From the NCBI RefSeq assembly GCF_017051705.1, contig NZ_JAFIDJ010000002.1, positions 1,069,939 to 1,133,938 on the forward strand: a DNA stretch of 64,000 bases, read 5' to 3'. Below the pieces are notes generated by a model that saw only the letters and a program-made list of their open reading frames with translations, was not told the origin of the DNA and made no database searches. Position 1 is the first letter of the stretch; every line of letters starts with the position of its first letter. This DNA comes from Algoriphagus lutimaris. GTDB lineage: Bacteria > Bacteroidota > Bacteroidia > Cytophagales > Cyclobacteriaceae. Positions 1,474 to 26,545 of this stretch are shown here, piece by piece. A program made the translations under genes and the position numbers.

Positions 1474-2700
1474 TTGACACTTAGTTTCTTCATAGCGCGC
1501 CGATATTTTCGCAGTAAGAAAAAGCGAAATTTTATCACGATCCTGTCCACCATTTCTATGGTGGGAGTAGCTGTGGGGACCATGGCATTGGTAATCGTGA
1601 TGTCGGTGTTTAATGGCTTGGAGGATTTAATCCGTAGTCTTTTTGTAAGCTTTGATGCGGAATTAAAGATTGAAGTCGCTGAGGGGAAAAGTTTTGAAGT
1701 AACGGAAGACTGGTTAGATAGTATTAGGTCTTTGGAAGGAGTGGAGGTCTTGACAGAGGTGATTGAAGATAATGCCTTGTTTGATTACAATGGAAATCAA
1801 ATTGTGGCAAGATTGAAAGGGGTTTCTGATAATTTCTTGGATCAGGGTAGGTTTACAAATGGCTATTTTTGGGGGGATACTACCTTGGGAACAGATTTGA
1901 GACCGGCTGCGATTTTAGGAAGAGGGGTTGGTTTTTTTCTTTCGGTCAACTTGAATGATGTCATTGTTCCATTAAAAGTCTTCTATCCCAAGGCTCCTAG
2001 ATCTGCAGCATCCATTGACCCAAATCAATTGTATTCTTCGGCAATCTTGGATCCAGTTGCCTTTTTCAGTATAGAGCGTCAGTTTGATGATGAGTACGTG
2101 ATTGCTCCGCTGGAATTCGCAAAAAATCTTTTGAATTATGGAAATAGAAGGACCTCATTGGAAATCAAAGTGGAAGAAAGCTATTCTATTAACTCTGTTC
2201 AATCTAGCTTAAAAGAATTACTAGGTCCGAAATTTTTGGTCAAAAATACAGATGAGCAACATGCGGGATTATTACGAACGGTGAAGTTGGAAAAGCTTTT
2301 CGTCTTTCTCACCTTGACTTTTATTTTGGCCATTGCGTCATTTAACATCTTTTTTTCATTGAGTATGCTGGCCATTGAGAAGAAAAAGGATATTGCCGTT
2401 TTAAAAGCCATGGGAGCTCCTGATAAATTGATCAGAAGGATTTTCCTGAAGCAAGGGGCATTGATTGCTTTGAGTGGAGCTATTATCGGATTGATTTTGG
2501 GGTTTTTGATTTGTCTGGCACAAGAAAAATTCGGACTGGTATCCTTGGGGATTTCATCGGCCGTGATCGACTCCTATCCTATAAAAATAGCCTGGACAGA
2601 CTTTATTTGGATAAGCTTGGCTGTTATTGGAATTACTTTATCGGCTAGCTATAGGCCTGCATTTATCGCATCCAAAGTGGATACAGTGAAGGAACTGTAA
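1474..2700 (+). CDS. LolC/LolE (FtsX-type) ABC transporter permease
   Basis: This is a permease subunit of a lipoprotein-release type ABC transporter in the inner membrane. The 408-residue protein begins with SFFIARRYFRSKKKRNF, a signature of the family, then TM1 (SMVGVAVGTMALVIVMSVFNG), a large periplasmic domain (about residues 45-265), and three C-terminal TM segments with the FtsX core (IEKKKDIAVLKAMGAP). The start is TTG; no ATG lies in a suitable place. It is 12 bp downstream of rbfA. The ATPase partner (LolD-like) is not in the window. Confidence 0.9.
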   Translation: MTLSFFIARRYFRSKKKRNFITILSTISMVGVAVGTMALVIVMSVFNGLEDLIRSLFVSFDAELKIEVAEGKSFEVTEDWLDSIRSLEGVEVLTEVIEDNALFDYNGNQIVARLKGVSDNFLDQGRFTNGYFWGDTTLGTDLRPAAILGRGVGFFLSVNLNDVIVPLKVFYPKAPRSAASIDPNQLYSSAILDPVAFFSIERQFDDEYVIAPLEFAKNLLNYGNRRTSLEIKVEESYSINSVQSSLKELLGPKFLVKNTDEQHAGLLRTVKLEKLFVFLTLTFILAIASFNIFFSLSMLAIEKKKDIAVLKAMGAPDKLIRRIFLKQGALIALSGAIIGLILGFLICLAQEKFGLVSLGISSAVIDSYPIKIAWTDFIWISLAVIGITLSASYRPAFIASKVDTVKEL

Positions 2701-2806
2701 TGTTCCTTTTTCATAAACATGAATTAATCCTTATTAATCTGTTGAAAATCAGTGTTTAATACTGAATTTTCAATGTTAGTTAAAAAGAGGATCAAAAAAA
2801 TCGTGT

Positions 2807-2814
2807 TATTTTTG
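2807..2814 (+). promoter_or_regulatory. Possible -7 box (TATTTTTG) for the coiled-coil membrane protein gene
   Basis: TATTTTTG fits TAnnTTTG and lies 62 bp before the ATG at 2876. No -33 TTTG is seen at about 20 bp upstream, so the call rests on the -7 box alone. Confidence 0.3.
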
Positions 2815-2875
2815 CCTCGAGGCATGTTTATTGAAGCCCCGATATCAATCCCCCAATTTGTAAATTAAATACCCA

Positions 2876-3478
2876 ATGTTAAAAGTATTGACCCTTTGTA
2901 GTTTGATGATGTTGTTTGTTGGACTTGGAAATCTAGCTCAAGCACAAGGCAGTTCCTCAGATCAGGGATCTCTAAACGGTGGCACGATCGATAGTCAATT
3001 TGATTATATCTACAATGTGTCCAATAATTACCAGGAATATAAGGTCGTTAAACGGACCAATCTGGATAAGTTAAAGTCTAATATTTTGGATTCCATGAGA
3101 ACTATGAGACAGGAAGTACTGGATCTTAAAACCCAGATTTCCAGTCAAAAAGACTCGATTGGCACCATGAATACGGTATTATTGCAGGTAGAAGCAGATA
3201 AAGAAGAGGCCATTGCAGCCAAAGACAATTTCACCTTTTTTGGCATTGGCATCCATAAAGGAGTCTACAGTTCTATGATGTGGCTTTTGGTGGCAATCTT
3301 GGCTGTTGCGCTGGCATTTTTCTCCATGCAATATTTGAGAAGTTTTAAAAAAATCAAGAAAGCCCAAAAGGATTTAGCGGAAGTTCAGGAAGAATTTGAC
3401 TCCCACAGAAAAAATACCTTGGAACGCGAACGAAAGTTAAAGCGTGAATTGGTTGATGCTCAGATGGGCAAAAAGTAG
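2876..3478 (+). CDS. Signal-peptide, coiled-coil, single-TM protein of unknown function
   Basis: The 200-residue product has an N-terminal signal sequence (MLKVLTLCSLMMLFVGLGNL, cleavage near AQAQ), an extracytoplasmic part with heptad-like stretches (SNILDSMRTMRQEVLDLKTQ), one strong TM segment (about residues 133-152) and a charged C-terminal helix (KKIKKAQKDLAEVQEEFDSH) rich in Lys and Glu. I recall similar Bacteroidota proteins named 'tRNA (guanine-N1)-methyltransferase'. Nothing here supports that: there is no trefoil-knot SPOUT motif, and a secreted coiled-coil protein is not a tRNA enzyme. The gene stands alone, with a strong terminator after it. Confidence 0.85.
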   Translation: MLKVLTLCSLMMLFVGLGNLAQAQGSSSDQGSLNGGTIDSQFDYIYNVSNNYQEYKVVKRTNLDKLKSNILDSMRTMRQEVLDLKTQISSQKDSIGTMNTVLLQVEADKEEAIAAKDNFTFFGIGIHKGVYSSMMWLLVAILAVALAFFSMQYLRSFKKIKKAQKDLAEVQEEFDSHRKNTLERERKLKRELVDAQMGKK

Positions 3479-3510
3479 AAAAATACTACATAATGAATTT
3501 TGACCTTCCC

Positions 3511-3556
3511 ATGGGTTAAAAACTGAGTTTTTCGGTTTTTAACCCATTTTTTTTTG
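3511..3556 (+). terminator. Rho-independent terminator
   Basis: A perfect 13-bp inverted repeat (ATGGGTTAAAAAC at 3511-3523 with its complement at 3535-3547) is followed by a run of ten T. Confidence 0.85.
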
Positions 3557-3612
3557 ATTTCCTTGTAATTTGAAAATCAAAATGGATCTTTTCTTATTCT
3601 TTTACTGCATGT

Positions 3613-4749
3613 ATGAAATTTCGGGATTTTGAGGTAATAGTAATAGGCTTGGGAGCAGTGGGATCTGCTACACTTTACCAACTTTCAAAAGCTGGAATTT
3701 CTGTTTTGGGCATTGATCGATTTGATCCGCCCCACCATAAGGGGTCTTCACATGGGGAAACCCGAATCACCAGATTGGCAGTTGGAGAGTCGGATACCTA
3801 TGTTCCTATGGTCAAACGATCTCATGAAATATGGAGAGAAATTGAGGCGATTTCAGGAGCATCTATTTTAACAGAATGTGGAGGTGTTTTATTGGATTCC
3901 GGAAAAACCCCTTGGGCCAAACATGGAGTGAAAGGGTTTTTCAAGAACACTGTAACTATTGCAGCTCAATTTGGGATTGCACATCAAATGATGTCCTCTG
4001 ATGAATTGAAAAAGAAATACCCTTTACTTCAACTTGAGAAAGAAGGAGCTGCCTATTTTGAATTTGCTGCAGGATATTTAAAACCTGAAATAGCCATTCA
4101 GTCCCAAATCAATCTTGCAGAAACGAATGGAGCTATAGTTTTAAGAAATAGCCCAGTACTTCAGGTGAAAAAACGGTCTGATTCAAAAGTACAAGTAGAA
4201 TTGGAAGGAGAAAGGGTGGTAGCAGATGTAGTGATCAATTGTTCCGGAGGTTGGATCAAAGATTTCTTATCCCAGACTGATCGTTCCAAATTTAAAATAT
4301 GCAGACAAATCCTCCATTGGGTAAAAATTGACCATGAGGGTTGGAAAGACTATCCGGTTTTTATGTGGGGCCACGGTCCGAATCCAGAGGATTTTATCTA
4401 TGGCTTTCCCTGCTTGGATGGGGTTTCTATCAAGATGGCAACCGAATCATTTGAAGCTGTGGACCATCCGGACCAAATCAATCGGGAAGTAACAGTGGAG
4501 GAGCAGCGTAGGTTCTGGAAGGAACAAGTTGAACCGAGGTTTGGGGGGCTGAAGCCAGAGTTTTTGAAATCTGAAGTTTGCTTTTACACGGTTAGTGAGG
4601 ATGCAAAATTTTTCATCCAGAAAAATGTGGATAATGAACAGGAGTGGATGGTATCTGCTTGCTCGGGACATGGGTTTAAGCATTCTGCTGCTTTGGGAGA
4701 ATATTTGGCTGATAGGATATTACAAAGGCCTCCTCGTTTCATTTTATAA
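3613..4749 (+). CDS. solA: Sarcosine oxidase / N-methyltryptophan oxidase-like FAD enzyme
   Basis: This is a DAO-superfamily flavoenzyme that oxidises an N-methyl amino acid, releasing formaldehyde and hydrogen peroxide in the monomeric sarcosine oxidase family. The Rossmann FAD motif VIGLGAVGSA is at residues 10-19 with G12, G14 and G17. The family signature GSSHGETRITRLA follows. Cys323 in VCFYTVSED lies where the family carries covalent FAD, and CSGHGFKHSAALGE near the C-terminus is the second FAD-binding segment. The length of 378 residues is normal. It is monocistronic, between a terminator and the ABC exporter promoter. The exact substrate cannot be told from sequence, so the symbol is by similarity. 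Confidence 0.82.
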   Translation: MKFRDFEVIVIGLGAVGSATLYQLSKAGISVLGIDRFDPPHHKGSSHGETRITRLAVGESDTYVPMVKRSHEIWREIEAISGASILTECGGVLLDSGKTPWAKHGVKGFFKNTVTIAAQFGIAHQMMSSDELKKKYPLLQLEKEGAAYFEFAAGYLKPEIAIQSQINLAETNGAIVLRNSPVLQVKKRSDSKVQVELEGERVVADVVINCSGGWIKDFLSQTDRSKFKICRQILHWVKIDHEGWKDYPVFMWGHGPNPEDFIYGFPCLDGVSIKMATESFEAVDHPDQINREVTVEEQRRFWKEQVEPRFGGLKPEFLKSEVCFYTVSEDAKFFIQKNVDNEQEWMVSACSGHGFKHSAALGEYLADRILQRPPRFIL

Positions 4750-11468: not shown

Positions 11469-14400
11469 ATGAAGAAAGTTTTATTAGGCTTGGCGTTTAC
11501 ACTTCTGACAGTCATGTCAGTTTTGGCGCAAAGCAAAACAATCACTGGTAGGGTAACCTCGGCTGAAGAGCCAGAAGGCGTACCAGGAGCAAGCGTGGTG
11601 GTGAAAGGAACCACACAAGGAACAATTACGGATTTGGATGGTACATATACTATTCAAGTTCCAAGTGAAGCAACCACTTTGGTCTTCAGTTTTGTGGGAT
11701 ATCTTTCCAAAGAAATGCCTATTGGATCCAGCAACGTGATCAACGTGGTGATGGATGTAGATGTGAAAACTTTGAATGAAGTAGTAGTAGTAGGATACGG
11801 TACTCAAGAAAGAAGAGAAATCACCGGTTCTGTAACTTCCATTGATAGCAAGTCTATTGAAAACTTGGTCTCTCCATCTTTTGAATCTCAATTGGCTGGT
11901 AGAGCTCCTGGGGTGCAAATTACTACTCCATCTGGTATTTTAGGTGCTGCACCGATTATCAGAATCCGTGGTATCAACTCTATTTCTTCCAGTGCAAGCC
12001 CATTGATCGTAATTGATGGCGTGCCAGTTGTAAGCAGCGACCGATCTTCTGTAAACGCTGCCAACCCATTGGCAAACATTAACCCTGCAGATATTTCTTC
12101 TTTCGAAGTATTGAAGGATGGTTCTGCTTCTGCAATTTATGGTTCTAGAGCTGCAAACGGTGTGATTTTGATTACCACCAAGAGAGGTGCTTCTGGAAAA
12201 GCAAAAGTATCTTACAATACTTCAATGGGTTTCAATGAGGAAGTAGACCGATTTGATTTGTTGACTGGTGATGAGTGGGTAACGATTGCCAATGAGAAAA
12301 GAACGAATGCTAACCAATCTCCTTTGGCTAATCCAGGTGTAAACACTGATTGGCAAGATCTAATCTTCAGAAAAGGATTTACTCAACAGCATAACTTATC
12401 TATTGCTGGTGGTTCTGATGCTACGAAGTATTTCTTCTCTTTGGGTTACACAGATCAGCAATCTCCTGTAAGACCTAATGAATTGAGCAGATACTCTTTC
12501 AGAGCAAACATTGATCACAGTATTTCTAAAGCAGTTAGAATCGGAACTTCTCTTTCTTACTCTTTCACTGAAATTTTTGGTTTGAACAATGGTGCAAACT
12601 CACTTTCTGGTGCGATTTACAATGCGACCCGTTCTTTGCCTAACGTTCCAATATATGATGCTGAAAACACAGCATTTGATGGTTTCAACGTAACTGCTAA
12701 CGGTGCGACTACTGGTTTTGGTGCTAACCTAGCTGGTCCTGACAACAATATTCCAAACATTGGTTTTGTCATTAAAAATAACTTGTACAGAAGCCGTACT
12801 CATAGAGCAATTGGTAATGCTTATGGTGAGGTAGACATCATCACTGGTTTGACTGCTAGAACTCAAATTGGTATTGACTTGACCATGAATGATGACTTCC
12901 AATCATTGGACCCAAGACATGGTGATGGTAGAAGCTCTAACGGTTCTATGTTCATGGCATTCAATCCGGCATTCCGTTGGAACTGGCAAAACACCTTGAA
13001 TTATCAGACTGTCATTGGAGATGACCATAATTTAAACGTTACTGGTGGTCTAGAATATCAGTTTACTAAATTCTACAATTTCTCCGCTCAAGGAACTGAC
13101 CTTTCTGATAACTTCTACAGATTGAATAACCTGATTTCTGGTTCTTATAACAACCAGTTCTCTGGTGGTGGCTATGCAGAAAGAGGATTCGATTCTTATT
13201 TCGGTAGATTCAACTACTCTTACAAAGGAAAATATCTTGCGTCTTTCACTGTGAGAAACGATGGTATTTCTGATTTGGCTATTGAAAACCAAAGAGGTAC
13301 TTTCTTCGGTGGATCTGTGGGATGGAGAGTTTCTGACGAAGCGTTCTTCAACTCTGAATTAATTTCTGACTTCAAAGTAAGAGCTTCTTATGCTGAAGTA
13401 GGTAATACTGAAATCGGTACATTCGCTGCTTACGGTGGTTATAGCCCAGTATTGGGTGGTGCTGGTGCTGGTATCGGTTATGCTGCAATTGCGAACAATA
13501 ACCTACAGTGGGAAACTTCCAAGAAATTCAACGTTGGATTGGACATGACCATTGGTCGTGTAACCATCGCAGCTGATTATTTCAAGAATGACATTGATGG
13601 ATTGATCCTAGATGCTCCAACTGCACTTTCTCTTGGTGTACCTGGAAATAACATTAGCCAAAACATTGGATCCATGACCAACTCTGGTTTGGAATTGAGA
13701 GCGTATGCGAATGTAATCAACAGAGGGAACTTCTCTTGGGATACAGACTTCAACATTACCTTCATCAAAAACGAAGTAAATGAATTGATTTCTCCATTGA
13801 CTGGAACTTACAACAGAACTGAAGAGGGTAATCCAATCGCTCAGTTGTATGGATATCAGTGGGCAGGTGTGAACCCAGCAAATGGTAACCCAATGTATGT
13901 ATCTGGTGATAATATCGTACAGTACAATTTGGTTCCAGGTGCATTGGGCTATAAAGCTTACGATCCTGCTAATCCAGGTGATGTTTCAGTAGCTGGTTCA
14001 GCTCCTACTCAGGAATATTTAGGAAATACTCTTCCTAAGTGGCAAGGTGGATGGTCAAACAACTTCAAGTTTGGCAACTTTGATGCTGAAATCTTTACAA
14101 GGTTCTCAGGTGGTAACTACATCATGAATCAATCAGTAAGAGGCCTTTTGGGTCAAGGTTTCTCTAATAACCATGCAAGCATCTTAAATAGATGGACTGA
14201 AAGCGGTCAGGTAACTGACGTACCAAAACTATACTCTGGTCAGGACCAAAACATGTGGCAAAATTCTGCTTCGAACTCAAGATTTGTAGAGAAAGGTGAT
14301 TTCGTTAAAATCCAAAACATTGTAGTAGGTTATACTATTCCAACTGCTGCTCTTCAAACTGCTTTCAATGGAGCGATCTCCAATGCTAGATTCTTCGCAC

Positions 14401-22919: not shown

Positions 22920-22961
22920 GGCCTTTAACTGAAAAAGGGTTAAGATGATCTGAAGGTATTC

Positions 22962-23143
22962 TTGCTTTTCGCGTTTCGATAATTATCGAAATGCAACATC
23001 GAAGTTAGTTCAGAAGATTTTTATTCCTCAAAAGAGATTTAAAATCACTGACCTGAAATTTAATAATCCTATATAGTCAGATTAAAAATCCTATGAAATA
23101 GGTTCAGGATTGCTCCCGACAATTGTCGTGGATCCTGAACAGC
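22962..23143. repeat. REP-type palindromic unit a
   Basis: The first of four mosaic units made of four hairpin types. P2 (CTTCGxGGTTTGCAACC...-like, degenerate here) holds an apical perfect 18-bp palindrome TTTCGATAATTATCGAAA (22974-22991). A weak P3 (GAAGATTTTT...) and P4 (near 23079-23095, GATTAAAAATC core) follow. P1 at 23102-23140 is GTTCAGGAT...ATCCTGAAC with apical CGACAATTGTCG. It is the first copy of a tandem 327-bp duplication. Confidence 0.75.
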
Positions 23144-23164
23144 TGAATTTCCTGGGGCCATTGT

Positions 23165-23304
23165 TTTTTGGAGAGCCCTTTGCATTTATAAATGAGACTA
23201 ATTGATTTCTAAATTTAAAAACTGCTAAAAAAGGAAATGGAAAAGTCTCAGGCTCGAATTTTGTTTTTATTCTTATTTCTCACATTACCTCATTTGGTCA
23301 AATC
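23165..23304. repeat. Direct repeat, upstream copy (promoter and signal-peptide region)
   Basis: About 140 bp at 23165-23304 recurs almost unchanged at 23492-23631, an offset of 327 bp. The repeated block carries the sequence before the ATG and the signal-peptide codons of the beta-barrel gene. Together with the preceding REP units it forms a tandem duplication of about 327 bp. Confidence 0.85.
23237..23304 (+). pseudogene. Truncated 5' copy of the beta-barrel gene
   Basis: This encodes MEKSQARILFLFLF, then LTLPHLVKS, nearly the same signal peptide as the intact gene at 23564. At 23305 it runs directly into a REP hairpin unit. The frame goes on to 23479 but only through repeat sequence, so no functional product is expected beyond a signal peptide. 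Confidence 0.7.
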
Positions 23305-23470
23305 TTGCTCTTCGAGGTTTGCAACCTCGAAGTTAGTTCAGAAGATTTTTAATCTTCAAAAGAGATATAAAATCACAAACCTAATTGTTAATTGTCCTAT
23401 ACAATCGGATTACAAATCCAATGATATAAGTTCAGGATTGCTCCCAACAATTGTCGTGGATCCTGAACAG
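23305..23470. repeat. REP-type palindromic unit b
   Basis: This is the clearest unit, with four palindromes in order. P2 is at 23310-23332 (CTTCGAGGTT TGC AACCTCGAAG), P3 at 23341-23357 (GAAGATT...AATCTTC), P4 at 23404-23422 (ATCGGATT acaa ATCCaAT) and P1 at 23430-23468 (GTTCAGGATT...ATCCTGAAC with an apical CAACAATTGTCG). All share a GATT/AATC-like centre. Confidence 0.85.
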
Positions 23471-23563
23471 CGAAAATAGCTGGATTTCTAATTTTTGGAG
23501 AGCCCTTTGCATTTATAAATGAGACTAATTGATTTCTAAATTTAAAAACCGTTAAAAAAGGAA

Positions 23564-24325
23564 ATGGAAAAGCCTCAACTCCGAATTTTGTTTTTATTCT
23601 TATTTCTCACATTACCTCATTTGGTCAAATCCCAATTTAGGCTCAATTTGGAGTCTGGGGCTGCTTTTTCGCAGTATAATGACGTTAGGGTTCCAAATGG
23701 AGAATCAAATTCCGGGACACTATTTTCCCTTCAGGATGATTTCAAGCCTTCGACTACTGCTTTTTTCAGACTGGAAATGAGCTATCTGATTAAAGGTAAA
23801 CATACAGTCGAATTGACGGCAGCTCCCTTACAGATTGGGTATCAGGATTCACAACTTGAGGAAATAAATTTCGCTGGATCACTATTTTCAGGAGAAGGAA
23901 TTGATGGTTCTTATCAATTTAATACCTATCGGGCCAGCTATAGATATCGCTTAGTGGGCAATAATCAATGGATCTTGGATTTAGGAGCTACTATTTTGGC
24001 TAGGGACGCTCGAATAGCACTTGAGCAAGGTGAGTTGCAGGCTGAGGATACGGACTTGGGCTTTGTGCCATTACTCAGCTTCAATCTAAATTATTCCCCA
24101 AAAGATAAACTCTCTTTTGTGTTAAAGGGTGATGCTTTAGTTGGTCCGCAGGGGAGGGCTGAGGATATTTTTGCAGGGATTAACTATCCGATTGGAACAA
24201 AGGGCCTACAACTTAAAGCTGGTTATCGTCTAATAGAAGGAGGAGCCGACGTGGATCAGGTATATAATTTTGCCTACATTCATTTTGCCAGTCTAGGATT
24301 GATGTATGATTTTTCTTTAAGATAA
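23564..24325 (+). CDS. Probable outer-membrane beta-barrel protein of unknown family
   Basis: The 253-residue product has a signal peptide (MEKPQLRILFLFLFL, cleaved near VKSQ) and alternating amphipathic strands through the rest, ending in the aromatic YDFSLR. This fits an eight-stranded or similar barrel. I do not recognise the family. The promoter and signal-peptide region are duplicated upstream at 23237, and a diverged copy of the last 23 codons lies at 25379-25449. The gene is therefore the survivor of at least two related copies that were broken up among REP units. Confidence 0.75.
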   Translation: MEKPQLRILFLFLFLTLPHLVKSQFRLNLESGAAFSQYNDVRVPNGESNSGTLFSLQDDFKPSTTAFFRLEMSYLIKGKHTVELTAAPLQIGYQDSQLEEINFAGSLFSGEGIDGSYQFNTYRASYRYRLVGNNQWILDLGATILARDARIALEQGELQAEDTDLGFVPLLSFNLNYSPKDKLSFVLKGDALVGPQGRAEDIFAGINYPIGTKGLQLKAGYRLIEGGADVDQVYNFAYIHFASLGLMYDFSLR

Positions 24326-24340
24326 AATGGAAATATTTAA

Positions 24341-24583
24341 GTTCAGGATTGCTTACTTGCTCTTCGAGTTCCGATAATTATCGGAATGCAACCTCGAAGC
24401 TTGATCTGGAGTTTTTTAATTTTTAAAAGAGTTTTAAAAACACTGGCCTGATCGTTAATTGTCCCATATAATCGGATTAAAAATCCTATGAAATAGGTTC
24501 AGGATTATAAATCCTGAACAGCGAAGAATCCTGCTCTTCGGGATTTGTAATCCCGAAGCTAGATCTGAAGATTTCTAATCTTC
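24341..24583. repeat. REP-type palindromic unit c, two partial sets
   Basis: Begins with half of P1 (GTTCAGGATTGC, 24341-24352). It then has P2 at 24362-24399 with apical TTCCGATAATTATCGGAA (perfect 18-bp palindrome), P4 at 24471-24489, P1 at 24497-24519 (GTTCAGGATT ATA AATCCTGAAC), P2 at 24536-24558 (CTTCGGGATT...AATCCCGAAG) and P3 at 24567-24583 (GAAGATT...AATCTTC). It ends 16 bp from the RAYT stop codon. Confidence 0.85.
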
Positions 24584-24599
24584 AACAAACACTTCCATT

Positions 24600-25130
24600 T
24601 CATCCAAAATCTGTCAATTGAATTGGCCCTTTTCTTATTCCGTAAAAATCTCCGGCGCTACTATTTAAATATTCCTCTTCCTTCTCCACAATTCCGGCTC
24701 TTACAGGGTTTTGATGAATGTAATTGGATTTTACGCTAAAAAACTTGACAGTAAATATCTCTTCTCCGTGATATCCATCTTCCCAAAACCAAATATTGCC
24801 TTGGTAACTCAAGGCTAATAGCAACCATGGTTTTCTGCTTTCTCTAGGGTTATCTTGAATAGCTCTAAAAATCTTCTTCGCAGTGAATTTTTTGAAATCC
24901 CTAATAATATCTGATAAATTTTCATTTTTTGCTCTTGCAATCAAATGAAGATGATTGCTCATTATCACCCATGAAAATATTTCCAGACCTTTTTCTTTTT
25001 GACAAAAGTTGAGACTTTCCAGGATTAGATCTGAATAGTCTTTCCTGCTAAAAACATCTATCCATTGATGAACTGTAAATGTCAGAAAATGGACAGCTCC
25101 TTGATCTCGAATTTTGAACTCGAATCCCAT
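24600..25130 (-). CDS. REP-associated tyrosine transposase (RAYT, Y1/HUH type)
   Basis: The 176-residue protein is of the Y1-transposase / TnpA-REP family. It carries the HUH metal motif SNHLHLIARA (His60, His62) and the catalytic Tyr137 in SNYIHQNPVRAGIV; FYGIRKGP-like residues close the domain. RAYTs act on single-stranded hairpin DNA such as REP sequences, nick at a tetranucleotide next to the hairpin, and are often single-copy domesticated genes. Here REP units lie on both sides (24341-24583 and 25165-25371) within 20-40 bp, which supports RAYT over a mobile IS200/IS605 enzyme. Length is normal and both motifs are intact. Confidence 0.9.
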   Translation of the reverse strand: MGFEFKIRDQGAVHFLTFTVHQWIDVFSRKDYSDLILESLNFCQKEKGLEIFSWVIMSNHLHLIARAKNENLSDIIRDFKKFTAKKIFRAIQDNPRESRKPWLLLALSYQGNIWFWEDGYHGEEIFTVKFFSVKSNYIHQNPVRAGIVEKEEEYLNSSAGDFYGIRKGPIQLTDFG

Positions 25131-25164
25131 AATTAAATTACTAAGCTTTTAGAATTTAGGTGAA

Positions 25165-25371
25165 AAGGGTTAAAAATCCTATGATTATAGTTCAGGATAA
25201 CAAATCCTGAACAGTCAAAGTCGTCTGCTCTTCGAGATTTGCAATCTCGAAGCTTGATATGAAGATTTTGAATCTTCAATGCCATCTGAAAAGACTAAGT
25301 AAATTGTTCATTGTTTTTAGCATTCGGATTGAAAATCCTATGGTATAAGTTCAGGATTGCAAATCCTGAAC
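25165..25371. repeat. REP-type palindromic unit d
   Basis: Starts with the end of P4 (GGTTAAAAATCC, about 25168). It then carries P1 at 25190-25212, P2 at 25230-25252 (CTTCGAGATT TGC AATCTCGAAG), P3 at 25261-25277, P4 at 25322-25341 and a second P1 at 25349-25371 (GTTCAGGATT GCA AATCCTGAAC). It lies just upstream of the RAYT gene on its own strand. Confidence 0.85.
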
Positions 25372-25378
25372 AGCCAAA

Positions 25379-25449
25379 ATCAGGTATATAATTTTGCCTT
25401 TATTCATTTTGCCAGTCTAGGATTGGTGTATGATTTTTCTTTCAAATAG
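25379..25449 (+). pseudogene. Diverged 3' end of a beta-barrel gene copy
   Basis: 71 bp match 24255-24325 (offset 1124). The copy encodes QVYNFAFIHFASLGL, then VYDFSFK, against QVYNFAYIHFASLGL, then MYDFSLR, with a stop codon in the same place. Most changes are conservative in the protein, so it looks like the tail of a paralogous gene rather than a recent copy. It abuts REP unit d with no coding sequence before it. Confidence 0.7.
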
Positions 25450-25456
25450 AAACCAT

Positions 25457-25506
25457 GATATAAGTTCAGGATAGCATCCAGGATATTAATCGAGATCTGA
25501 ACAACG
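25457..25506. repeat. Degenerate REP-like palindrome (unit e)
   Basis: The segment contains AAGTTCAGGAT and, at its far end, ATCTGAAC, so it is a decayed or recombined P1 hairpin. The NIPSNAP gene begins 130 bp later, and 25507-25638 shows nothing further. Confidence 0.4.
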
Positions 25507-25638
25507 CAGGCTTTATCACTAAGTAGTTTCGTTTCGAATCCACTTTTTCTTAAAATCTCCTTAGGAATGGAAGTACAGGATAATTTCTTTGTTCAAAAAG
25601 GTTATTTTGAGCAATCAAAACCCAAAACCTATCATATC

Positions 25639-26445: not shown

Positions 26446-26545
26446 GAGGCTGTTTCAAAGATTTTCTATTTTCACCTTTCGATCCCGTACAATTGTCGGG
26501 ACGTTCAAGGTGTCATCTTAAATTATTGAAACAGCCTCTTTTTAT
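26446..26545. terminator. Long composite hairpin, bidirectional terminator
   Basis: A perfect 13-bp outer stem (GAGGCTGTTTCAA 26446-26458 with TTGAAACAGCCTC 26526-26538) is followed by TTTTTATT. Inside are AAGAT/ATCTT, CACCTT/AAGGTG and an apical TCCCG t ACAATTGT CGGGA palindrome (about 26483-26501). It lies between convergent genes and can end both. The length of 93 nt is unusual for a terminator. Confidence 0.7.

Follow-up and report, generated by a model that had tools for sequence, protein, structure and literature searches.

Layout of the locus

This study concerns a gene for a REP-associated tyrosine transposase (RAYT; REP, repetitive extragenic palindrome) and the hairpin-forming repeats around it in Algoriphagus lutimaris. 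The analysed DNA, called the window, is a whole stretch of 64,000 nucleotides (nt) on contig NZ_JAFIDJ010000002.1 (positions 1,069,939 to 1,133,938; contig C8 below). The host genome (G000) is 4.72 Mb, and the genomes of 72 other congeneric species were compared with it. In the labels, G plus a number denotes a genome, L a fetched locus, and C a contig; positions are those of the window unless a contig is named. The interval from an M1 peptidase gene to a NIPSNAP gene contains five palindrome blocks, an intact open reading frame (ORF) of 253 amino acid residues (aa), and an intact RAYT gene. The original prediction, made from the sequence, had described the blocks as sets of up to four palindrome types, P1 to P4, in the fixed order P2-P3-P4-P1. 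These five blocks (units A to E) do exist and the order is kept in 5/5, with unit A being degenerate. The 253-aa ORF is called here the barrel ORF, which is the label of that prediction. R1 denotes a covariance model of one end (half-unit) of such a unit. The features are as follows.

22964..23143, + strand: unit A, degenerate P2-P3-P4-P1, small palindrome in the P2 and P1 loops; R1 matches at 22964-23029 (+, 18.2 bits) and 23077-23143 (-, 41.6 bits)
23165..23304, + strand: copy 1 of a partial duplication spanning the 5′ end of the barrel ORF and DNA upstream of it; 95% identical to 23492-23631
23307..23471, + strand: unit B, P2-P3-P4-P1 with a further palindrome inside the P1 loop; R1 62.8 and 48.8 bits; edges GCT/AGC
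23564..24325, + strand: barrel ORF, intact, 253 aa, single-copy, adjoining the M1 peptidase gene; open reading frame
24255..24327, + strand: 3′ end of the barrel ORF, duplication copy 1; 92% identical to 25379-25451
24359..24522, + strand: unit C, P2-P3-P4-P1 with a further palindrome inside the P2 loop; R1 23.7 and 62.4 bits
24533..25215, - strand: unit D, the RAYT element, GCT-P2-P3-RAYT-P4-P1-AGT; R1 matches at 24533-24583 (+, 66.7 bits) and 25165-25215 (-, 42.9 bits)
24600..25130, - strand: coding sequence of the RAYT (TnpA-REP), 176 aa, HUH motif NHLH, Y motif YIHQNP
25227..25374, + strand: unit E, P2-P3-P4-P1, best preserved; R1 66.3 and 65.4 bits; fold z-scores -5.9 and -5.6
25379..25451, + strand: 3′ end of the barrel ORF, duplication copy 2, running into the NIPSNAP flank as in G013
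25464..25502, + strand: single long-looped P1-like hairpin following copy 2 of the 3′ end; G013 has a similar one after the ORF

The intact RAYT with HUH and tyrosine motifs was also predicted correctly. The 176-aa protein matches NCBIfam NF047646 (REP-associated tyrosine transposase) at 102 bits, above the cut-off of 80, and has NHLH at residue 59 and YIHQNP at residue 137, with 77 residues from the first histidine of the HUH motif to the tyrosine. The two histidines and the tyrosine are invariant in 101/101 aligned relatives. The W motif is WE in the window; the W is kept in 99/101 relatives, followed by E in 43 and by Q in 35. A phmmer search of the RAYT against PDB sequences gave no match at 0.01. 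Among the relatives with species names, the nearest are from Algoriphagus.

Anatomy of the ends

Each end of a unit consists, from outside inward, of 5′-GCT, a 10-bp hairpin (L), a linker of 8-10 nt, and a second hairpin (S) of 5-8 bp. The loop of L has 3 nt starting with T, mostly TGC or TGT, and the linker often contains GATC, TATC or AGATA. P2 and P3 form one end, and P1 and P4 form the other as the same composite inverted. Since P2-P3 and the reverse complement of P1-P4 share one plan, the four-hairpin unit is an inverted pair, L-S...S-L. Four independent hairpins were considered and ruled out by the loop polarity and the 5′ GCT, which leave two inverted copies of one composite. A search pattern for P1 with a 4-nt loop gave 0 matches, because the P1 loop has 3 nt. 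The original prediction took the units as ordered sets of four different hairpins, unlike simple REPIN pairs. A single ordered unit does recur, as a solo copy at C1:97316-97442 and as three units in G016, and a REP-like system of Bacteroidota tied to a RAYT is supported. However, the unit is made of two inverted two-hairpin ends and not of four unrelated hairpins, and such an inverted pair is REPIN-like in plan.

The RAYT gene lies between P3 and P4 of unit D, in the arrangement GCT-L-S-RAYT-S-L-AGC (AGT in the window copy) of ~680 bp. Its stop codon is 15 nt past the P3 hairpin, and P4 begins ~35 nt beyond the start codon. Because the stop side adjoins P3 and the start side adjoins P4 of the split fourth block, the RAYT is inside one unit. 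Thus, the gene has blocks beside it, as predicted, but it is itself enclosed by one of them (24533-25215). The gene-less units have a spacer of ~50 nt and a total length of ~130-180 bp.

Under a strict rule for half-units (a 10-bp L arm with at most 1 mismatch, plus S), the window contains 5 half-units, all of them at the RAYT locus, and each of 20 dinucleotide shuffles contains 0. The z-scores for folding as single-stranded DNA are -5.9 and -5.6 for the two strands of unit E and -5.9 for the solo unit on C1.

Some L hairpins carry a small palindrome within the loop, resulting in a hairpin on a hairpin (22971-22994, 23114-23131, 23442-23459, and 24369-24386). This second palindrome is found in the P1 stems of units A and B and in the P2 stems of units A and C. 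Such loops occur in other genera too, in the RAYT flanks of L028 and L037.

Hairpins beside related RAYTs

The best 80 of 212 matches to the RAYT were fetched with their surroundings, making 81 loci with the window. The density of core hairpins with arms of at least 8 bp is 6.1 per kb within 100 nt downstream of the genes in the 80 relatives, as compared with 0.24 per kb beyond 2 kb. Within 600 nt of the 81 RAYTs there are 164 L-type hairpins, and the loop gives the orientation of 158 (TGC 96, TGT 35, TAT 14, other 13). It had been suggested that a tetranucleotide next to each hairpin might be conserved; a trinucleotide was found instead, as GCT stands directly 5′ of L in 103/158, followed by GAT (22), GTT (17), ACT (6), and others (10), and the bases on the 3′ side are diverse. 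The GAT cases in L029, L042, and L044 resemble long S hairpins, and further GAT cases are found in L068 and L074. At least one such hairpin accompanies 39/81 RAYTs, namely 29/44 of those with at least 56% identity and 10/37 of those below. These counts are lower bounds, because several unlabelled RAYT loci bear terminal hairpins of another loop type.

An alignment of ends (A2) was made from 112 ends found, among which 58 distinct ones have perfect L arms; 15 were removed by hand (mostly near-duplicates, and both L060 ends), leaving 43. In A2, 12/17 base pairs vary on both sides, and the covariation score is above those of all 500 shuffles. Since perfect L arms were the selection criterion, it is the variety of the stems and not their perfect pairing that counts as evidence.

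At ~50% identity, congeneric RAYTs are accompanied by other hairpins in similar positions, such as ACT-AGGYGTAG.../GGGTGAAG... in one clade and hairpins with a GCTTCTCCAGAAGC core in another. On a RAYT tree made by a quick method (101 proteins after identical and short ones were dropped; 61 with and 40 without a hairpin label), the 5′ trinucleotide or hairpin type changes 12 times for the 61 labelled rows, as compared with at least 19 times (mean 22.9) in 300 shuffles. The 5′ trinucleotide and hairpin type follows the RAYT tree.

Limits of the element

Probably, a compact single-strand transposon of the HUH Y1 type and gene-less derivatives of it are nested at this locus. The sequence shows the anatomy, the sharp limits at GCT...AGC in the pairs and units described below, and the presence or absence of units at orthologous sites; the action of the enzyme would resemble that of known relatives. 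The RAYT between inverted ends (~680 bp) would be the autonomous form, and the pair of ends with the ~50-nt spacer the non-autonomous form.

RAYT loci with 1.4-kb flanks were compared. Among 26 pairs with at least 75% DNA identity, 5 are syntenic and 21 are not. Both GCT and AGC are callable in both loci in 9/21 non-syntenic pairs; the upstream GCT of the window was read by eye since its hairpin is imperfect. In 5/9 pairs (L178-L096, L096-L099, L178-L099, L014-window, and L018-L177), both edges of homology lie at most 3 nt from GCT and AGC in both loci, although these five pairs come from 7 loci and are not all independent. The limits of unit D coincide within 2 nt with the homology block shared with L014/L173. 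The block is also visible by eye in the alignments of the window, L172, and L173, where no homology outside it was found within 1.5 kb, further repeat copies excepted. In L014/L173 (G025), an internal stop interrupts the RAYT at codon 10. G054 has a second clade-I RAYT (C44:114712), for which no counterpart was seen in its close relative G002, 92-96% identical to it over the RAYT locus that both share.

RAYTs serve as the textbook case of a bacterial transposase that has become a resident gene. The locus might be read as an ordinary REPtron, in which an immobile, domesticated RAYT spreads double hairpins as REPs in trans and these accumulate beside the gene. The low RAYT copy number of the host genome would suit such a REPtron, and so would the 5/26 syntenic pairs (L020-L021, L100-L101, L017-L177, L042-L044, and L102-L104) and the hairpin units just upstream of the syntenic RAYT, which differ between L174 and L177. 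However, the homology of non-syntenic RAYT loci ends at the flanking GCT/AGC in the 5/9 testable pairs, and the gap between S and the gene is only 15 nt at the stop codon and ~35 nt on the start side in the window. Thus, a REPtron of the ordinary kind seems unlikely here.

Returning to the transposon and its derivatives, the limits were also followed in repeated copies within genomes (66 pairs, of which G051 supplies 39). On the upstream side, the homology stops at most 9 nt from L in 56/66 pairs; 4 of the remaining pairs, which are tandem copies, reach the 120-nt limit, and 6 stop at 11-38 nt. From the first base of L onward, the homology is 48-372 nt. Seven units of two genomes have the same GCT/AGC limits. 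If the units were moved or copied by homologous recombination and slippage between palindromes, with the RAYT uninvolved, then the tandem duplications in the window, L162, L164, and L165 and the half-units in RAYT-less genomes would be expected. It is nevertheless very improbable, as the 5′ end is sharp at GCT-L with unrelated DNA upstream in the 56/66 pairs and the hairpin type tracks the RAYT tree. That the hairpins are RNA-level elements kept by the host (terminators or mRNA stabilisers) is very improbable. Their intergenic position in the window and a weak strand bias in single internal mismatches (G-T 31, A-C 15, other 30; n = 76) speak for it, but neither L nor S is followed by a T-run in the window units, a search against Rfam at gathering thresholds found nothing in the window, and the inverted design with GCT/AGC limits would resemble the ends of an element. 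The hairpins may have a secondary RNA role.

Gene-less units in other genomes

The palindromes are not confined to the locus. The host genome has 23 half-units by R1 (E ≤ 0.01, as for all genome counts unless stated), 9 at the RAYT locus and 14 elsewhere. R1 does not count other hairpin types. The complete solo unit at C1:97316-97442 lies upstream of a nitrilase-like gene. It is absent in G013, whose downstream flank is 95% identical and whose homology resumes beside AGC. On the other side, 97 further bases of the host are unmatched, including a hairpin like that of one of the ~50% identity clades; thus, the left limit of this difference is not clean. Among the 7 genomes searched for the nitrilase-like gene, G016 has a unit there with flanks that are not alignable, and five gave no usable comparison.

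Half-units were found in 68/73 congeneric genomes and in 51/51 high-quality ones. Genomes with a full-length clade-I RAYT (at least 60% identity; n = 13, consisting of 12 uninterrupted ones and G025 with the internal stop) have 13-44 half-units, compared with 1-44 in the others (n = 38; one-sided Mann-Whitney p = 0.0019, which is generous as the genomes are related). Across the phylum, under stricter filters, 12/198 genomes including the host have an R1 match at E ≤ 0.001, which indicates that the model does not match noise.

Longer repeats were seen in L162 (G051; e.g., 2700-4200), L164 (G022), and L165 (G016). In these repeats, GCT-L-S at the start is followed by GCTGGC...GCCAGC, then by a hairpin of the CCCAGGG/CCCTGGG type and by GACCCC/GGGGTC. 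The array spacings are ~220-480 bp, and dispersed copies exist in G051. These long repeats look like chimeras of two hairpin systems.

The barrel ORF and the history of the interval

The original prediction supposed that the repeats had broken up a beta-barrel gene family. Gene fragments do lie between units, as partial duplications of 140 bp and 73 bp at unit edges, but they derive from the region of one intact, single-copy ORF. In the 73 congeneric genomes, the barrel ORF is full-length in 5 and truncated in 1, and 5 have weak matches (28-31% identity). A broken gene family was rejected, since there are never two full copies. The ORF has no Pfam or NCBIfam family, and phmmer against PDB sequences gave only a chance-level match (E = 0.5). 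In L324 (G025; ~1770-1990), a barrel-ORF homologue ends prematurely near a degenerate GCT-L-S remnant, and the repeats may have damaged it.

Eight orthologous M1-NIPSNAP intervals were fetched. In G049, G072, G007, and G003, ~160-260 nt lie between the aligned stretches, with no L hairpin and no unit. G016 has one unit, and G026 (L217) has one half-unit in an interval of ~2.8 kb. G022 has a degenerate P2-P3 and the last 42 RAYT codons before the barrel ORF. In G013, the interval contains one degenerate unit, the barrel ORF, and a lone P1-like hairpin, and no RAYT match was found in the genome at E ≤ 0.001. Both 140-bp copies of the window (23165-23304 and 23492-23631) correspond to a single stretch in G013. 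Because 25379-25451 joins NIPSNAP as the end of the G013 ORF does, the segment spanning units C to E is additional in the host or was lost in G013. This segment is bounded by the 73-bp repeat, and unit B by the 140-bp repeat. Similarly, G016 has a 234-aa ORF (L211, reverse complement ~13090-14290) between the two units of a block, and a 62-bp repeat of the NIPSNAP end bounds this block; the ORF has no Pfam family and is a possible passenger gene.

Downstream of the NIPSNAP gene, a 19-bp inverted repeat lies at 26446-26538, with 55 nt between the arms, a CAATTG-centred palindrome in the loop, and a T run after it. It is probably a terminator.

Possible mechanism

By analogy with the literature on TnpA-REP and IS200/IS605 enzymes, the RAYT would bind the L hairpin in single-stranded DNA with the 5′ trinucleotide as a guide, cut next to this trinucleotide, and join the 5′ end elsewhere. 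More speculatively, the cut end might be joined to a nearby strand on the sister copy, giving local tandem duplications that start from GCT-L and carry flanking host DNA. Such joining would explain the two barrel-gene fragments. TnpA-REPs of E. coli and others are described as cleaving at C|T beside a hairpin, guided by a 5′ sequence, and joining to 3′ ends that terminate in C, according to the parts consulted of PMC8266576. The junction of the 140-bp duplication, ...AAATC|TTGCT-L, fits a C|T joint; the 73-bp junction is without an obvious fit. In the arrays of L162, L164, and L165, the left edge begins at GCT-L, as judged by eye. A broader proposal can be put forward only tentatively and may well be wrong: the group-5 RAYTs of Bacteroidota might be live minimal transposons and not domesticated genes, with double-hairpin ends, GCT as the guide, gene-less derivatives that spread, and host DNA copied by one-ended joining, so that duplications from the hairpin capture pieces of neighbouring genes.

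Several observations weigh against a mobile element. As for its limits, 3/9 pairs (L017-L018, L020-L103, and L021-L103) have at least one edge off and at least one edge on the predicted limit, neither edge lies at the nearest L in L035-L044, and 12/21 non-syntenic pairs lack a callable limit on at least one side. No recent jump is documented; the host genome has one RAYT copy, and the two RAYTs of G054, the only within-genome pair compared, agree at 125/177 positions. No target-site rule and no fixed-length duplication were found, nor was a clean empty site for the whole block in the compared genomes. The difference between the host and G013 could be a loss in G013, and the RAYT relic of G022 sits at another spot of the same locus. 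The number of further pair types in A2 is 22, not above the shuffles (mean 24.0). By eye, the spacer of the units has no clear similarity to the interior of the RAYT element, so that an origin by internal deletion lacks sequence support.

The link with the RAYT is not strict either. The original prediction asked whether the copies correlate with the presence of a RAYT, and an abundance in genomes lacking this type was to speak against the system; this objection holds in part. Half-units are indeed commoner with a full-length clade-I RAYT, but they persist without one in G016 (42), G018 (20), and G013 (12), and also in G003 (many); G018 has no Y1_Tnp match at E ≤ 0.001 and only a 49-residue RAYT remnant. 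In 10 genomes, an exact match to the stems flanking the resident RAYT was seen for 9/50 distal L stems, where 4.3 would be expected (p = 0.03); a single RAYT locus was used for each genome, and the distal copies came from the 150 best-scoring matches. The idea that the repeats of each genome match its own RAYT was thus rejected as too simple.

Comparison with known systems

The family itself is already known; what is added here is the end structure, the guide, the limits, and the design with the gene inside the unit. No paper describing the GCT-L-S anatomy was found, as judged by titles and the openings of abstracts. In the parts consulted, Nunvar et al. 2010 (PMC2817692) report no insertion-sequence-like mobility for RAYTs, a 2021 Nucleic Acids Research paper (PMC8266576) no evidence of tnpA-REP mobility, and a 2021 Genetics paper (PMC8049555) that RAYT genes do not copy themselves. 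The present comparison suggests that this RAYT is built like a moving element, although its transposase family is usually regarded as immobile.

By its HUH and Y motifs, length, and atypical flanking structures, the RAYT fits Bacteroidetes subclass 2.6, or group 5. In the text consulted of Quentin et al. 2018 (PMC6006769), TnpA-REP subclass 2.6, which equals Bertels group 5, belongs to Bacteroidetes, has NH[LIV]H, YIH[QN]NP, and a W motif WQ, and shows a median of 179 aa with a median of 82 aa between the motifs; its genes are flanked by "atypical", "weaker" secondary structures with no GT[AG]G and with copies elsewhere in the genome. The window RAYT agrees in the HUH and Y motifs and in length, its flanks are without GT[AG]G, and copies exist elsewhere. 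In contrast to the repeats called atypical in that text, those described here are resolved as inverted GCT-L-S ends that enclose the gene with sharp limits. GCT-L-S is thus a defined candidate substrate for this RAYT group. Other congeneric Y1_Tnp genes (L249, L250, L251, L257, and L258; frames of ~150-220 aa with Y-x3-Q-x2-HH, like subclass 1.2) are flanked by repeated palindromes; Table 1 of the same paper lists no REP for subclass 1.2. Similar Y1_Tnp genes without flanking palindromes also exist, e.g., L243, L244, and L248.

The arrangement resembles the TIRtron in that a RAYT-like gene stands between inverted, partly double-palindromic repeats. G. forsetii is a species of Bacteroidota. In the parts consulted of Di Nocera et al. 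2013 (PMC3733652), it appears as a species with CGTC repeats and a tyrosine transposase, and the TIRtron/TIRYT is described as a RAYT-like gene flanked by inverted repeats, some of them "double palindromic TIRs" (terminal inverted repeats). TIRtrons form moderately abundant repeat families in Acidobacteria, Pseudomonas, Stenotrophomonas, and others, with a GGGGWSAS motif in some TIRs, and that text, as far as consulted, differs in giving no GCT guide or element limits.

REPINs or BIMEs with a canonical RAYT (group 2 of E. coli, group 3 of Stenotrophomonas) share with the present units two inverted hairpin modules, a short conserved 5′ sequence, an HUH Y1 enzyme, and units in tandem. Two inverted REPs as one unit, which define a REPIN, are seen in the window units, C1:97316-97442, and the three units of G016. 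On the other hand, GCT (or GTT, ACT) replaces GTAG/GTGG, which was not found at the hairpin foot among the 158 oriented hairpins; each module has two hairpins, the gene lies inside the module pair, and the copies number tens and not the hundreds of REPs per genome of a canonical REPtron (1-44 R1 half-units in the 51 high-quality congeneric genomes).

IS200/IS605 elements have gene-less derivatives. Elements such as IS608 and ISDra2 also share the Y1 transposase, the hairpins at both ends, and the compactness. Here, the transposase is of the RAYT class, each end has two hairpins, and L lies directly at the limit and is not subterminal. Multiple near-identical copies or a demonstrated transposition, as expected of IS200/IS605, were not found, with one RAYT copy in the host genome and a diverged pair in G054. 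If the present reading holds, it would suggest a mechanism, open to testing, by which genes are duplicated and fragmented by small repeats next to them, and a RAYT clade with the gene, hairpins, and sharp limits as one block would represent a middle stage between IS200/IS605 and REPtrons.

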